From positions 1 to 34,796 of the forward strand of contig JAEEXH010000025.1 in assembly GCA_016291435.1 (NCBI GenBank): a stretch of DNA of 34,796 bases. Direction: 5' to 3'. A program made the position numbers and the translations under genes. The notes under the pieces were generated by a model. The model saw only the letters and a program-made list of their open reading frames with translations. It did not search any database and was not told the DNA's origin. Positions 4,833-12,650 of this stretch are shown here, one piece after another (positions within the stretch are counted from its first letter, which is position 1; every line of letters begins with the position of its first letter). This stretch comes from Oscillospiraceae bacterium (GTDB lineage Bacteria > Bacillota > Clostridia > Oscillospirales > Ruminococcaceae).

Positions 4833-5315
4833 TCAGGAAGCCGCCGGCTCAGTGTAGGAAATATTCGCCTCTTTAAGCGCGTCTGTCAGCGCATTGTAGG
4901 CGTTCAGCGATGCGTTGTCATCTGTGATGCGGACAACCGTGCCCGCTTCGAGCGATTTCAGCGATGTGAGCAGGTCATCAAGCGAAATGCTCTTGTTTTC
5001 GTAGAGATAATCGCTGCCGCTGACCGTAACAGAAACGGTCCTGACAACAGCCGTCGTGCTCTCCGCCGTGAGGACAGTCTCCGCGGTTATGTCCGCAGTG
5101 GTCTCTGCGCCCGCGGTCGCTTCCGCAGACACGGAAGTTGTGGTATCTCCGGCGCCGCTGCCCTGCGAGCTGCCGTCACCGTTCCCGCCGCCGCCGAAGC
5201 CGAAGCCCGCGCCGCAGTGCGTCAGAAGATAGGCACATGCGCCGAGCACGCCGACTGCACCGATGCCACCCGCGACCTTCGCGCCGGTCTTTCCTTTTTT
5301 CTTTCCTTCACTCAT
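4833..5315 (-). CDS. Membrane-anchored protein with ExbD-like C-terminal domain
   Basis: A 160-residue protein. A basic N-terminus (SEGKKKGKTGAK) leads into one hydrophobic helix (about 14-34), then a Gly/Ser/Thr/Ala linker (about 38-88) and a small folded domain (about 92-157). That domain has the strand-helix-strand-helix order and the spacing of the periplasmic domain of ExbD/TolR: VSVTVSGSDYLYENKSISL, then a helix, then TVVRITDD, then a helix ending in ALKEANI. Unlike true ExbD, the membrane helix carries no Asp, so it cannot be the proton-carrying subunit. It is the last gene of the operon, 9 bp after the ExbD-like gene, with GAGGTGGAAAC before its ATG. It probably partners or docks to the motor outside the membrane. 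The domain call rests on pattern alone. Confidence 0.7.
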   Translation of the reverse strand: MSEGKKKGKTGAKVAGGIGAVGVLGACAYLLTHCGAGFGFGGGGNGDGSSQGSGAGDTTTSVSAEATAGAETTADITAETVLTAESTTAVVRTVSVTVSGSDYLYENKSISLDDLLTSLKSLEAGTVVRITDDNASLNAYNALTDALKEANISYTEPAAS

Positions 5316-8592: not shown

Positions 8593-9528
8593 ATGCCTGC
8601 ACATTTTCATATTCCCGGCATCGTCCAGACCTTTCATGTCAATCAGCTCCTGATTATGATGATGGAGAAGCACCCCGAAGCCTTCCGCCCGGAGACCGAT
8701 ATCGGCTCAATCTACGGTGAATTCCCGTCCTCCATGTGGAACGGCGGGCGCGTTGTCGGCGGCGGGATCGGCGAGGCGGATATGCGCTATATCATCGGCG
8801 AGATCAACGGGAAGGGCATTTCCCTGCGCTATACCTTCACAAATCCCCTGATCGGCAAAGCGCATCTCGATGACGCACACTGCAACCGCTGCTTAAAGCT
8901 CGCAGACCGTGCGGACAGGCTCAATGCCGTGATTCTTGTCTCGCCGGAGCTTGAAAAATACATCCGCAGGAAGTATCCGAACTATCGCATTGTTTCCTCG
9001 ACCTGCAAGCAGATCCGCGATTACGACAAGCTCTGCGAAGAGCTTGAAAAGGACTACGCCTGCGTTGTGCTCGATTACAATTTCAACAATCAGTTTGAGC
9101 TGCTCGAAAAGCTCCCGCACAAGGAGCGCATTGAAATCCTCTGCAATCCGCTCTGCCCGCCCGCATGTCCGCGCCGCGGCAAGCATTACAATTATCTCGG
9201 CAGATTGCAGATCGCCTTCAGCGAGCATCTGAAAAAGAACGGCACATCCCGCGGATTCCGGTTCTCGGAGGATTTTGAATGTCCGCACACGGAAAAGAGC
9301 ATCTACGATATTACGCAGCACGCGACACATGTGTCGCCGGAGGATATTTATGAGAAGTATATTCCGATGGGCTTTCAGAATTTCAAGATCGAGGGACGCT
9401 CGACCAATCTGCTCAATGTCATCGAAACTTATATGTACTACTTGGTGAAACCGGAGCACCGCGATGAGATACGTCTAAACTTTCTCCGGCTGATGGAAGC
9501 AAACAAACTGCTTCGCCTCGAGGGCTGA
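8593..9528 (+). CDS. U32-peptidase-like protein (PrtC/UbiU/V-related), short
   Basis: A 311-residue protein. The C-terminal half carries the U32 hallmarks: CNPLCPPACPRRGKHY (about residues 188-203), a further Cys in FECPHTEKS, and FQNFKIEGRS, which matches the family motif FKIEGR. In U32 proteins the four cysteines hold an Fe-S cluster, and members hydroxylate tRNA or ubiquinone precursors rather than cut peptides. Full-length relatives have about 400 residues or more, so this is a compact divergent member. AGAGGAGAATGACAT precedes the ATG. It lies between DUF5662 and a MATE exporter with 3- and 4-bp gaps. The substrate is unknown. Confidence 0.68.
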   Translation: MPAHFHIPGIVQTFHVNQLLIMMMEKHPEAFRPETDIGSIYGEFPSSMWNGGRVVGGGIGEADMRYIIGEINGKGISLRYTFTNPLIGKAHLDDAHCNRCLKLADRADRLNAVILVSPELEKYIRRKYPNYRIVSSTCKQIRDYDKLCEELEKDYACVVLDYNFNNQFELLEKLPHKERIEILCNPLCPPACPRRGKHYNYLGRLQIAFSEHLKKNGTSRGFRFSEDFECPHTEKSIYDITQHATHVSPEDIYEKYIPMGFQNFKIEGRSTNLLNVIETYMYYLVKPEHRDEIRLNFLRLMEANKLLRLEG

Positions 9529-9532
9529 CCGT

Positions 9533-10873
9533 ATGGCTGCCGCACTTGACATGACGCAGGGCAGCGAGGCAGGGCTGCTCATCCGCTTTGCACTGCCGCT
9601 GCTGGCAGGCAATCTGCTCCAGCAGGTCTACACGGCAACGGATACCGCGATCGTCGGCAAGGTGCTCGGCGATGACGCGCTCGCTGCCGTCGGCGCAACA
9701 GGCTCGATCACCTATCTTTTCTCGACGCTCTGCATCGGTCTCGGCATCGGTGCAGGCATTATCATTGCACAGCTCTACGGCGCCGGCTTCCTCGAACGCA
9801 TGCGATCCGCCGTCTGGAACTCCGCGCTGGTGACACTGCTCTTCGGCATCGTCATCAGCGTTATTTCTGTGCCGCTGACAGAGCCCGTGCTGCGCCTGCT
9901 CAATACCCCCGATGCGCTGCTTCCCATGGCGGCTTCCTACATGAAGATCGCGTGCGGCGGCACAATCGCCGTTGCCTTCTATAACTGGATCAATTCCGTG
10001 ATGCGTGCGCTCGGAGATGCACGAACACCGCTGGTGTTCCTCGGGGTCTCCTGCGGGCTCAACATCGCGCTCGATCTGCTCTTTATCCTTGTATTTCACT
10101 TCGGCGTGCAGGGTGCGGCGGCAGCGACAGTCATCGCGCAGGCATGCTCTGCGGTCGGCTGCACGGTCTATGCCTTCCGCAAAATGAAAGAGCTGCATCT
10201 CACACGCGCCGATCTCCGCACGGACACGCAGATGATGCGGCAGTGCATTGTCACGGGTGTCCCGATTGCAGTGCAGAACGGCATGATCTCCGTTTCGATG
10301 GTCGCGCTGCAAAGAGTGACCAACGGCTTCGGCGAGGCGGTCATGGCGGCATATACCGCGACGCTGCGCGTGGAGATGTTCGTACATCAGCCGTTCTCCT
10401 CCCTGAATGCCGCGCTCGCGACCTTCACCGGACAGAACACCGGCGCAGGCAAGGAGGACCGCGTGCGGCGCGGTCTGCGCACGGGTCTCATGATCGGCGC
10501 ACTGATCGGGCTTGTGATCGCTGCCGCCTTCTGGCTCTTCGGCAGAGCGGCGCTGCTCTGCTTCATTTCCCGCGAGGAATCCGTGCGCATCGGCACATGG
10601 GGGCTGCGGGTCAATGCCTGCTGCTATATCCCGCTCAGCATCATCTACACGACACGCGGCTTCTTAAACGGTGCCGGCGACACGGTCTATGCAATGATGA
10701 ACGGTGCGGCAGAGGTCATCAGCCGCATCGGGTTTGCACTGCTGCTGACGCCCATTGCTTCCGTCGGCTGGCACGGCATCTGGTACACAACCTGCATTAC
10801 CTGGTGTGCAACGGCGATCGTCGGGCTGCTGCGGTATCGCTCCGGGAAATGGAAATCCAAGGCAATCGGGTGA
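9533..10873 (+). CDS. MATE-family efflux transporter
   Basis: A 446-residue membrane protein with 12 predicted helices arranged as two related halves, the usual MATE size and fold. Family features include the N-terminal MTQGSEAGLLIRFALPLLAGNLLQQVY, TATDTAIVGKVLGDDALAAVG, and the second-half counterpart QNGMISVSMVALQRVTNGFG. It should export cationic drugs or metabolites using a Na+ or H+ gradient. The substrate cannot be read. The ATG is 4 bp after the U32-like stop, with GAGG inside that gene as ribosome site, so it is co-translated with the operon. The last gene of the operon; the stop is followed by an AT-rich stretch and the promoter of the large RNA. Confidence 0.93.
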   Translation: MAAALDMTQGSEAGLLIRFALPLLAGNLLQQVYTATDTAIVGKVLGDDALAAVGATGSITYLFSTLCIGLGIGAGIIIAQLYGAGFLERMRSAVWNSALVTLLFGIVISVISVPLTEPVLRLLNTPDALLPMAASYMKIACGGTIAVAFYNWINSVMRALGDARTPLVFLGVSCGLNIALDLLFILVFHFGVQGAAAATVIAQACSAVGCTVYAFRKMKELHLTRADLRTDTQMMRQCIVTGVPIAVQNGMISVSMVALQRVTNGFGEAVMAAYTATLRVEMFVHQPFSSLNAALATFTGQNTGAGKEDRVRRGLRTGLMIGALIGLVIAAAFWLFGRAALLCFISREESVRIGTWGLRVNACCYIPLSIIYTTRGFLNGAGDTVYAMMNGAAEVISRIGFALLLTPIASVGWHGIWYTTCITWCATAIVGLLRYRSGKWKSKAIG

Positions 10874-10943
10874 TACCTGACACATATTCATAAAATATCT
10901 CCAAATTGTTCACAGAAAATTCACATAAATATTCCAAAAATGC

Positions 10944-10972
10944 TTGACAAACCGGAAAAGTTATGGTATAAT
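10944..10972 (+). promoter_or_regulatory. Consensus sigma-A promoter of the large RNA
   Basis: TTGACA (10944-10949), 17-bp spacer, TATAAT (10967-10972): both boxes match the consensus exactly. This is the best promoter in the window. Transcription would start near 10980. No protein-coding gene follows for 700 bp. Confidence 0.9.
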
Positions 10973-10979
10973 GTAACCA

Positions 10980-11685
10980 TGGAACAGGAAAGACACCTGA
11001 GGGCAGAACATAAGACAGCAAGAAAAATGCTGCGGCTGACAAATAGGTGCTTTCGGAGCTGTTTCACGTAAGGATCATGCGGAGCTCCTGCCTTGTCGGA
11101 TACAGGGTTCGTGAGCGCGAAAGCGTTGGAGTATGCCGCAAATACAGATCCGGAAAGGTGCTGGGACCGATGGATACGGCAGAGAAGATCTCTGCGGTCG
11201 GCATTGGCTCACACAAAGTGCTTTCTGTGTAAATTATCGCAGCCCGCGCTCCCGACTTCCAGTTCATTCAGTCGGACATGCACTGCAATTCCTTGACGGA
11301 AGCTGACACAGAAGCCCGCCGCCCGACGGGGCAGCGCCGAAACGGTCATGTGTGAGTCGCAGAACAAAGCATGTGCATCCGGCAGGCGGAACCTGCCGAA
11401 GTAGCGCAGGACTCTGCTCGAAGAGAAAGGGCAGGATCAGCGGGCGCTGGGTTTCACTCCATACAGCCGATCGCAAATGAGAACCGACTTTACTCCTGAG
11501 GGAACGGGGGTTGTGCTCCCGGCGTTCCTGCAAGTGCTCCAAGGGGCGCAGTGAAAGACTGCGGAAACGGGCGCTTCTCATATCGCCGTGCGGTTCGGCG
11601 TGAATAAAGGCTGTAAAGGAATCAACCGCATTACAACTGAATACAAAATAAGGAGGGGCTTGAAACATGAGCCCCTCTTATTTTT
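10980..11685 (+). ncRNA. Candidate large structured noncoding RNA (about 705 nt)
   Basis: The stretch runs from a perfect sigma-A promoter to a strong terminator and has no plausible gene: the short frames in it have odd composition and no ribosome site. Hairpins seen by eye: CAGCA/TGCTG (near 11020) nested inside CACCT/AGGTG; CGC-GAAA-GCG; GCAGAGA-AGA-TCTCTGC (near 11180); CCGACT/AGTCGG (near 11252-11275); GGCAGG-CGGAA-CCTGCC (near 11380); GGAACG/CGTTCC (near 11500-11527); CGCAGT-GAAAG-ACTGCG (near 11550); CGCCG/CGGCG. Longer pairings include GCTTTCTGTGT with ACACAGAAGC and GGACATGCAC with GTGCATCC. I find no landmarks of RNase P, tmRNA, SRP RNA or group II introns. Size and style recall OLE, ROOL and GOLLD RNAs, but I cannot assign it to any of them. 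Confidence 0.72.
11653..11685 (+). terminator. Terminator of the large RNA
   Basis: GAGGGGCT-(9 nt)-AGCCCCTC forms an 8-bp GC stem followed by TTATTTTT. Confidence 0.88.
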
Positions 11686-11697
11686 GCAGTATCAGAA

Positions 11698-11741
11698 ATG
11701 CGCACTGCCCGGAGTTTCGGACAGTGCGCATCTTGTTTTTA
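11698..11741. terminator. Second hairpin between large RNA and whiA (tandem or bidirectional terminator)
   Basis: ATGCGCACTG / CAGTGCGCAT with an inner CCG/CGG pair; on the plus strand followed by CTTGTTTTT. On the minus strand it lies just after the whiA stop but the T-run is poor. It probably insulates the two convergent transcripts. Confidence 0.65.
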
Positions 11742-12650
11742 CGGTATTTTCGCGGCAATCTCAGAAATCTTTTGCAGACGGTGATGCACGCCGGAGCGCG
11801 AAATCGGCGGGTTCAGCATCGCGCCGAGCTCGCGGAGACTTGCCTCCGGCTCCTCCAGCCGCGCATAGGCGATCTGTCTGAGCGGCTCGGGCAGCGATTC
11901 CAGCCCGACTGTCGCGGCGATATGCTCGATCTCCGCGACCTGCTGTGCCCCCGCCGCAACTGCCTTGTCGATATTCGCAAGGTCGCAGTTCATGCGGCGG
12001 TTCGTCTGGCTGCGGATATCCTTTTTCACCTGCACATTGATCATCTCGATGGCGGCATTCTGTGCGCCGAAATACACCAGCGCATCACAGATCTGCTCAT
12101 TCTGCTTGAGATAAAGCAGCAGCTCATTCTTGCGGACGGTCGTCTTGAACGGGATCGGCGTCTCAAGCGCTGCGAGCATCTCCTGAAGCGCTACACCGAA
12201 CACGGCATCCGGGAGCGCCAGCTCCATGTGATACTCGCGCTCGGGATCGGTGATGCTCCCGCACATGACGAATACACCCGCGGAGAGGAGCATCTGTTCC
12301 CGCGGTGACAGCGCCCGGCGAAGCGTCTCTGCGCGTCTCTGCGGCGACACCTGCAATGTCTCACACAACACAGCGATCTCCTGCTTTCCCTCCAGCGTAT
12401 AGCACCAGAGCGGCAGCTTGCCTGTGCGCTGACGGTATTCTGTATCCAGCACATTCGGCGGCAGACCGGCTGCCTTCAGCAGCTTCGGAAACAGCACCGC
12501 GAATGCCTCACATTCCGTTTGCATTGCAAGCTCTGCCGATGAAAACCGCCGCACTGCCATCAGCACGCCTGTGAGAAACGCACGGCGATCCTCGGGCGAC
12601 TTCACGGCATTACAGATCTCGGTCTTGGTATCGTTTGAGAAGGATGCCAT
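11739..12650 (-). CDS. whiA: WhiA, DNA-binding regulator of division/sporulation
   Basis: A 303-residue protein. The N-terminal two thirds is the degenerate LAGLIDADG homing-endonuclease fold typical of WhiA (SNDTKTEICNAVKSPEDRRAFLTGVLM at the start, RKNELLLYLKQNEQICDALVYFGAQ in the middle). The C-terminus (about 215-300) is the helix-turn-helix ending LRELGAMLNPPISRSGVHHRLQKI. In Gram-positives WhiA supports cell division and chromosome segregation and, in actinomycetes, sporulation. Length is close to the usual 310-320. GGGGAGG precedes the ATG. It follows rapZ by 37 bp, the classic pairing. The gene yvcK/glmR, usually between the two, is absent here. Confidence 0.95.
   Translation of the reverse strand: MASFSNDTKTEICNAVKSPEDRRAFLTGVLMAVRRFSSAELAMQTECEAFAVLFPKLLKAAGLPPNVLDTEYRQRTGKLPLWCYTLEGKQEIAVLCETLQVSPQRRAETLRRALSPREQMLLSAGVFVMCGSITDPEREYHMELALPDAVFGVALQEMLAALETPIPFKTTVRKNELLLYLKQNEQICDALVYFGAQNAAIEMINVQVKKDIRSQTNRRMNCDLANIDKAVAAGAQQVAEIEHIAATVGLESLPEPLRQIAYARLEEPEASLRELGAMLNPPISRSGVHHRLQKISEIAAKIP

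Follow-up and report, generated by a model that had tools for sequence, protein, structure and literature searches.

A segment of approximately 706 nt on the plus strand (10980-11685, the start being approximate) of the 34,796-nt stretch of Oscillospiraceae DNA analysed here, hereafter the window, is almost certainly a real stand-alone RNA gene, judging from sequence comparison, and represents a class of RNAs of about 700 nt that lies outside Rfam. Its relatives occur among gut bacteria of and near Ruminococcus. The decisive support for the gene is provided by homologues, which were invisible to the first-pass annotation of the window. That annotation had described a large structured noncoding RNA, possibly of a new class. 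Large size, structure and a place outside Rfam are upheld here, whereas "noncoding" may not hold strictly, since a translation-start module and the mini-frames of relatives had been overlooked. Its further suggestions, of an abundant RNA (prompted by the promoter alone) or a catalytic one (to which no result here points), are conjectural. The start module and its short frame (11153-11232) are the best-kept part of the RNA and were absent from the earlier description.

Architecture of the RNA gene

The span of the RNA is delimited by a promoter and a terminator, and is matched by homologous copies and by a model of its core. The promoter (10944-10972, plus strand) comprises TTGACA (10944-10949), a 17-nt spacer and TATAAT (10967-10972), with TG before the -10 element. 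It matches the consensus at 12 of 12 positions, as the first-pass annotation had stated, and is the only sigma-70-like site in 10800-11800; shuffled sequence is expected to yield 0.5 sites at a looser threshold of 9 of 12. The roughly 700 bases that follow had been described as gene-free, and no recognisable protein gene was found in them. The Pfam check covered the largest internal frame, of 134 aa on the minus strand (11264-11668), and gave no match; two smaller frames overlap the ends (10797-11042, minus strand, and 11588-11881, plus strand). The strong folding proposed for the segment is borne out by a folding energy of -271.6 kcal/mol against -246.0 +/- 9.7 kcal/mol in 20 dinucleotide shuffles (z -2.65), none of which folds as well.

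Transcription is predicted to end at an intrinsic terminator (11651-11685, plus strand), in which a 12-bp, covarying stem (11651-11679) is followed by a T-run; the hairpin and T-run had been recognised before, with a stem given as 8 bp. The second GC-rich hairpin reported after it is present at about 11700-11729, as read from the sequence, between the RNA and the convergent gene whiA, which it may serve. Upstream, the neighbour of the RNA is a MatE transporter gene, itself preceded by a frame of 311 aa (8593-9528) with no Pfam match at E 0.001.

Catalogued families do not account for the RNA. The window has no Rfam match at the gathering score, a permissive scan of 10870-11750 (E up to 10) returned chance-level matches only (best E 0.71), and no family was found over the RNA in eight homologous loci scanned at E up to 0.01. 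The models of OLE, ROOL, GOLLD, HEARO, raiA, group II intron and SRP were not reached over the RNA in the window, the segment or these eight loci. No tRNA or tmRNA was detected in the window by ARAGORN. Neither RNase P (RF00010) nor 6S RNA (RF00013) has a match in the window, and the single match to each in the same genome (G000) lies elsewhere, on contigs C78 and C66, respectively. Identity with a known RNA family was rejected on the basis of the Rfam scans, ARAGORN and the RNase P and 6S matches at other sites. The first-pass annotation had seen no landmark of RNase P, tmRNA or SRP and had suggested an Rfam search as the check; both outcomes agree with its view. Among the matches listed in a search of open-licence papers, no description of the RNA was found, and to our knowledge no RNA with such a plan has been described. 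Pieces of it could be among the unnamed predictions of large computational surveys.

Homologues and genomic place

Collinear pieces of the RNA were recovered by BLASTN from 7 of 60 other genomes, or 8 of 61 once the window's own genome is counted, and the aligned copies share the promoter and the terminator. The motif GAAAGGN{6,12}CCRATGGA matches 29 of 30 genomes of the genus, mostly at unrelated places; 23 sites beside that of the window were chosen by eye for a GTGAG-like spacer, giving 24 loci. A perfect TTGACA-17-TATAAT is present in 23 of these. The remaining locus, L091, was judged unrelated and dropped, so that the later set of 23 copies holds only loci with a perfect promoter. By an end rule of our own setting, these copies span 612-829 nt. 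A core model of 108 positions, derived from the 23 copies, matches 26 of the 30 genus genomes; the search of related genomes that the first-pass annotation had called for therefore finds the RNA kept across species. Of the four genomes missed by the model, three (G011, G015 and G026) yielded no copy; in the fourth, G014, a diverged candidate with a perfect promoter lies next to DUF1292 and is matched weakly by profile (E 0.0097). In a family draw of 197 genomes, under stricter filters, the core model matched only the window's own genome.

The usual neighbour of the RNA is 6S RNA. Both were found in 22 genus genomes, and in 19 of these they share a contig on opposite strands, with 6S no more than 0.9 kb from the core; the exceptions are the window's genome (G000), G004 and G017. 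In 19 of 23 loci, a frame separates the two RNAs; it belongs to cluster c3 in 9 loci and to c1 in 10, the c1 frame being read as the opposite strand of the c3 gene, which we take to be DUF1292-like. A tblastn search with the DUF1292-like frame gave matches in 14 of 18 loci fetched for the 6S/DUF1292 neighbourhood, and profile search of this neighbourhood in other families found no homologue. The window RNA adjoins whiA instead of 6S and the DUF1292-like gene, and downstream frames vary among homologues. Two further observations concern single genomes. The window's genome has a second core-model match (G000:C90:6000-6106) whose RNA stretch reads the same as that of G027, the two contigs agreeing at 4919 of 5782 positions by simple offset; this copy is either a paralogue or contamination. 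In G017, whose RNA is on another contig, the locus L111 (contig C118), beside a DUF1292-like gene, has a perfect TTGACA-17-TATAAT at the RNA's usual place.

A stricter motif, searched over genome contigs, returned 71 stretches, of which 13 were set aside by eye on organism and frame. Twenty of the remainder are the genus copies again, and the new material consists of 38 loci with 39 sites, including Ruminococcus flavefaciens FD-1, other Ruminococcus records, Acutalibacter and Neglectibacter. The related sites differ from those set aside in having a promoter (55 of 59 versus 0 of 13), a hairpin of at least 8 bp (51 of 59 versus 1 of 13) and a frame no longer than 34 codons (59 of 59 versus 4 of 13), of which only the hairpin is a fresh test of the split, because the split was made by eye after promoters and frames were known. 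A cmscan search of 16 related loci found 6S in 11 (a seventeenth locus scanned, L115, is unrelated). The core model gives the Ruminococcus and Acutalibacteraceae relatives weak scores, at a level that some unrelated motif hits also reach, so that the link between the groups rests on architecture and place, both of which the window RNA class shares with these relatives. Later counts for these groups cover the 30 of 39 sites at which a promoter was found (22 Ruminococcus, 8 Acutalibacteraceae).

A wide spread in the order is not indicated, the exact motif occurring in 5 of 394 genomes; three of these were judged real and two not real. Of the three, one is new, and the other two lie on contigs that match L141 and L175 in length and so add no further copy. 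Phage origin was likewise rejected, the strict motif having no match (0 stretches) in viral contigs. Outside the genus, the profile scores best (E 5.7e-6) at positions 162-186 of L142, a locus that was set aside. It sits at the end of a 4.5-kb contig in a MAG named Cryptobacteroides, of another phylum, and is perhaps a stray contig.

Start module, short frame and helices

The best-kept elements of the RNA are GAAAGG, a spacer like GCGUGAGNCC and ATGGA. The Shine-Dalgarno-like GAAAGG (11153-11158, plus strand) lies just 5' of a hairpin and is invariant in eight copies, namely that of the window and seven BLAST finds, which involve no pattern selection. The 5' arm of this start hairpin (11159-11168) is the spacer between the Shine-Dalgarno motif and the ATG, and its 3' arm (11206-11215) is inside the frame; both belong to a consensus helix of 23 sequences. 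In these, the spacer pairs with GGCUCGCGC inside the frame through 12 consensus pairs, the inner two of which involve the U and G of the ATG, and 97.4% of cells are paired against at most 50.7% in slid controls, a comparison biased towards the start hairpin, the structure having been derived from the same alignment. Its covariation score is reached by 21 of 500 shuffles, a modest excess because much of the hairpin is invariant. The window copy forms 10 of the 12 pairs, with one mismatch and one gap. When the partner of the spacer was sought freely, the same one came out best in 18 of 23 genus copies, and other pairings were preferred in the remaining five (the window, L072, L081, L084 and L090). 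At the 26 Ruminococcus and Acutalibacteraceae sites listed, the partner forms 5-10 pairs and begins 22-39 nt after the A of the ATG.

The short frame, ORF1 (MDTAEKISAVGIGSHKVLSV), has 20 codons in the window (11170-11232, plus strand), and its ATG (11170) is at the top of the start hairpin. ORF1 is 20-26 codons long in all 23 genus copies and 16 or 19 codons long in all 21 distinct Ruminococcus copies, which none of 1000 null replicates matches in either group (null means 4.5 and 11.7 codons); the null leaves out RNA-structure constraint, and the length ranges were chosen after the data had been seen. Stop codons are TGA in 17, TAA in 5 and TAG in 1 of the genus copies; the 22 Ruminococcus sites have 11 TAA and 11 TGA, and the 8 Acutalibacteraceae sites 4 TAA, 3 TAG and 1 TGA. 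Codon positions 1, 2 and 3 change by 6.2, 6.3 and 7.1 in 14 distinct genus frames, and by 3.9, 4.1 and 5.3 and by 7.5, 7.2 and 9.5 in the other two groups. The interchange of stops and the nearly equal change at the codon positions indicate that the frame conserves its start, length and stop, with the peptide left to drift. The third position is slightly more variable in all three groups, and some selection on the peptide is possible. The peptide differs between groups, with some residues common within a genus. Among copies found without the ATG pattern, the ATG is kept in G006 and G016, and GTG takes its place in G014, where homology is based on place, promoter and a weak profile hit.

Covariation, which the first-pass annotation had named as a test of the RNA, gives a divided answer. 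When substitutions in 23 sequences were shuffled along the tree, three helices lay beyond all 40 nulls: 11318-11323/11330-11335, the terminator stem and 11369-11374/11388-11393 (k=6). Tests of single pairs (G-test) found no significant covariation. The strongest signal is that of the hairpin at 11318-11335 (plus strand; 0 of 40 nulls), which has one mismatch in the window copy. At the positions aligned to 11369-11374/11388-11393, the window copy is unpaired and has instead a seven-bp hairpin (11380-11398, plus strand), the probable counterpart. Among 17 Ruminococcus RNAs, one helix exceeds 30 nulls.

Two helices are marginal, 11196-11204/11464-11472 (E 0.05-0.075) and 11346-11352/11560-11563 (E 0.075). 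The former appears in the window copy as a long-range helix of seven pairs between 11196-11202, within ORF1, and 11466-11472 (both plus strand), with compensatory changes seen. At the end of ORF1, 11222-11230 forms nine pairs with 11306-11314 (both plus strand) in a helix that belongs to the alignment-fold consensus and is weak in the null test (E 0.175). The helices 11220-11225/11311-11316 (0.175) and 11211-11216/11345-11353 (0.225) are suggestive, and some of those listed are mutually exclusive.

Proposed ribosome engagement and alternative readings

The 3' tail of 16S rRNA reads GGCTGGATCACCTCCTTTCTA in the window's genome and five others, and the 22 nt before ORF1 were compared with long frames of the same loci for duplex formation with it. 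The mean duplex energy is -19.1 kcal/mol in 22 Ruminococcus sites versus -11.3 for 75 long frames (p 2e-12), -22.0 kcal/mol in 8 Acutalibacteraceae sites versus -12.2 for 31 long frames (p 8.6e-6) and -18.3 kcal/mol in 23 genus copies versus -12.3 for 130 long frames (p 1.7e-11), by Mann-Whitney tests that ignore relatedness and motif selection. The score of the homologues is inflated because most were found with a pattern requiring GAAAGG and CCRATGGA; the yardstick is lowered because the long frames are mechanical and some are perhaps not genes; and the spacer sequence is needed for the start hairpin regardless of 16S pairing. The window copy is ordinary in this respect, at -13.3 against a mean of -13.0 for 25 window genes. 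Every one of the 10 matches to the pattern AAAGGN{0,4}TGAGTCCNATG falls at the RNA locus; they come from 5 of 7 genomes, the spacers of the other two, G000 and G002, not fitting it.

The Ruminococcus RNAs carry additional sites of Shine-Dalgarno plus ATG that open frames like MR, ME and MRK, including ATG-AGA-TAA mini-frames after further Shine-Dalgarno motifs, and 11 of the 16 Ruminococcus rows listed have a closing frame of 10 codons. Sites past an energy cut-off, ORF1 included, number 2.71 per RNA in Ruminococcus versus 0.39 in shuffled sequence (17 of the 22 RNAs, with both L125 copies counted) and 2.00 versus 0.51 in the 8 Acutalibacteraceae. The excess is weak in the 23 genus copies, at 1.87 versus 0.51, a mean reached by 49 of 460 shuffles. 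Duplex energy with 16S is not unusual at the further Ruminococcus mini-ORF sites (58 sites, mean -11.4). Frames of two or three codons after a strong Shine-Dalgarno motif belong to the Ruminococcus relatives; the window frame has 20 codons, and the other sites of the window copy, which start either a long frame or, inside the terminator, one of six codons, are not of the Ruminococcus kind. In R. flavefaciens FD-1 (L170), GAAAGGTGAGTCCCATGAGATAA occurs four times at 70-nt spacing in RNA positions 439-657, each time as a two-codon frame. The 3' part of Ruminococcus RNAs, for example those of L167 and L137, has an element like GAAAGGGTGAGTCCACAGGG, without an ATG, followed by a hairpin with a variable stem and a GAAAG-like loop.

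At the level of sequence, these comparisons establish the gene and its conservation, the start hairpin, some other helices and the keeping of frame length and stop, as well as an unusual 16S complementarity in the relatives. The preferred reading, that the RNA engages ribosomes as a sensor or as a decoy or sink, is given a probability of about one half. The spacer after the Shine-Dalgarno motif would have two alternative partners, namely the 3' arm that closes the hairpin on the ATG and, in most relatives, the 16S 3' tail. A 30S subunit that binds the Shine-Dalgarno motif could exchange the intramolecular hairpin for pairing with its own 16S tail, open the hairpin, start, read the very short frame and stop. 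Reading would also open the long-range helix made of ORF1 codons, and in this way ribosome loading would refold the RNA. The outcome may be sensing of ribosome supply, holding of ribosomes or protection of the RNA, the ORF1 peptide itself being a presumed by-product. A narrower form, proposed tentatively and considered rather unlikely, is that of a ribosome decoy, which would mimic translation starts and detain idle ribosomes or 30S subunits on mini-frames gated by hairpins.

The most credible alternative, if an unlikely one, is an OLE-like RNA with a purely structural or protein-binding role, in which GAAAGG..ATGGA would be an untranslated docking motif resembling a start site. Such a motif would suit a peptide whose sequence is barely conserved, a 3' arm fixed by pairing, the ordinary 16S complementarity of the window copy and the GAAAGGGTGAGTCCACAGGG-like element, which lacks an ATG. 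It fits poorly with stop codons that interchange, with frame lengths kept beyond the null and with mini-frames such as ATG AGA TAA after further Shine-Dalgarno motifs. The strongly diverged G014 candidate, homologous by place, promoter and a weak profile hit, also speaks against it in having GTG, another start codon.

RNAIII is a long structured RNA with an embedded short frame. A dual-function RNA of this type, which would base-pair with mRNAs and encode a working peptide in ORF1, is distinctly improbable here. The likeness includes a long structured RNA, one embedded short frame and a start inside a hairpin, and both the residues common within a genus and the slight third-position excess point the same way. 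Against it, the peptide varies from group to group and shows only a weak codon-position signature; unlike RNAIII, the window RNA class has a hardly conserved peptide and, in its Ruminococcus versions, several mini-frames.

A leader or attenuator of a downstream gene, which the embedded short frame, alternative pairings and terminator call to mind, is very improbable and was disfavoured, given that the next gene in the window, whiA, is convergent and that downstream frames differ between homologues. Equally remote is an RNA that has diverged from one of the known families (RNase P, tmRNA, 6S, SRP, OLE, ROOL, GOLLD, HEARO, raiA or group II intron): OLE, ROOL and GOLLD are of a similar size class (PMC12286853), but Rfam models matched neither the window nor the RNA in the eight homologous loci, and the genome has its RNase P and 6S at other sites.

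The proposed ribosome engagement has partial parallels in known systems. Like the window RNA, the bacterial or phage RNAs OLE, ROOL and GOLLD are 600-800 nt long, heavily folded and of unsettled function. According to PMC12286853, ribosomes bind GOLLD in pull-downs, OLE could sequester RpsU, and ROOL and GOLLD are often near tRNA islands. In contrast to this last setting, eight loci of the window RNA class that were scanned have 6S in seven cases and tRNA in one; the class further differs from all three RNAs in its start hairpin and short frames and in having no Rfam match. Prolonged engagement of ribosomes, with toxicity, is reported for some two-codon minigenes (PMC8708949). The likeness lies in the ATG AGA TAA frames after Shine-Dalgarno motifs of the Ruminococcus relatives, not in the window copy, and the cases considered there are leaders, operon-internal or synthetic, whereas those described here are in a stand-alone RNA. 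In Staphylococcus aureus, extended Shine-Dalgarno starts involve 16S pairing beyond the canonical motif, which amounts to two extra pairs on ordinary mRNAs (PMC13009471); here, the predicted complement is longer and imperfect and lies in a structured RNA.

The neighbouring 6S RNA is a separate molecule, with a model of 187 positions, and the window RNA is several times longer. 6S RNA mimics an open promoter. By analogy, one idea is that the window RNA could be the translational counterpart of 6S, resembling a translation start as 6S does a promoter.

New classes of large bacterial RNAs are few, and most come without a testable function. The class described here, whose family includes a strain named Ruminococcus flavefaciens FD-1, offers a handle on function in the form of a conserved start codon enclosed by a hairpin, whose stem in most relatives shows complementarity to the 16S tail as well. 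If the RNA does engage ribosomes, it would represent global control of translation by an RNA, beside 6S RNA doing likewise for transcription.
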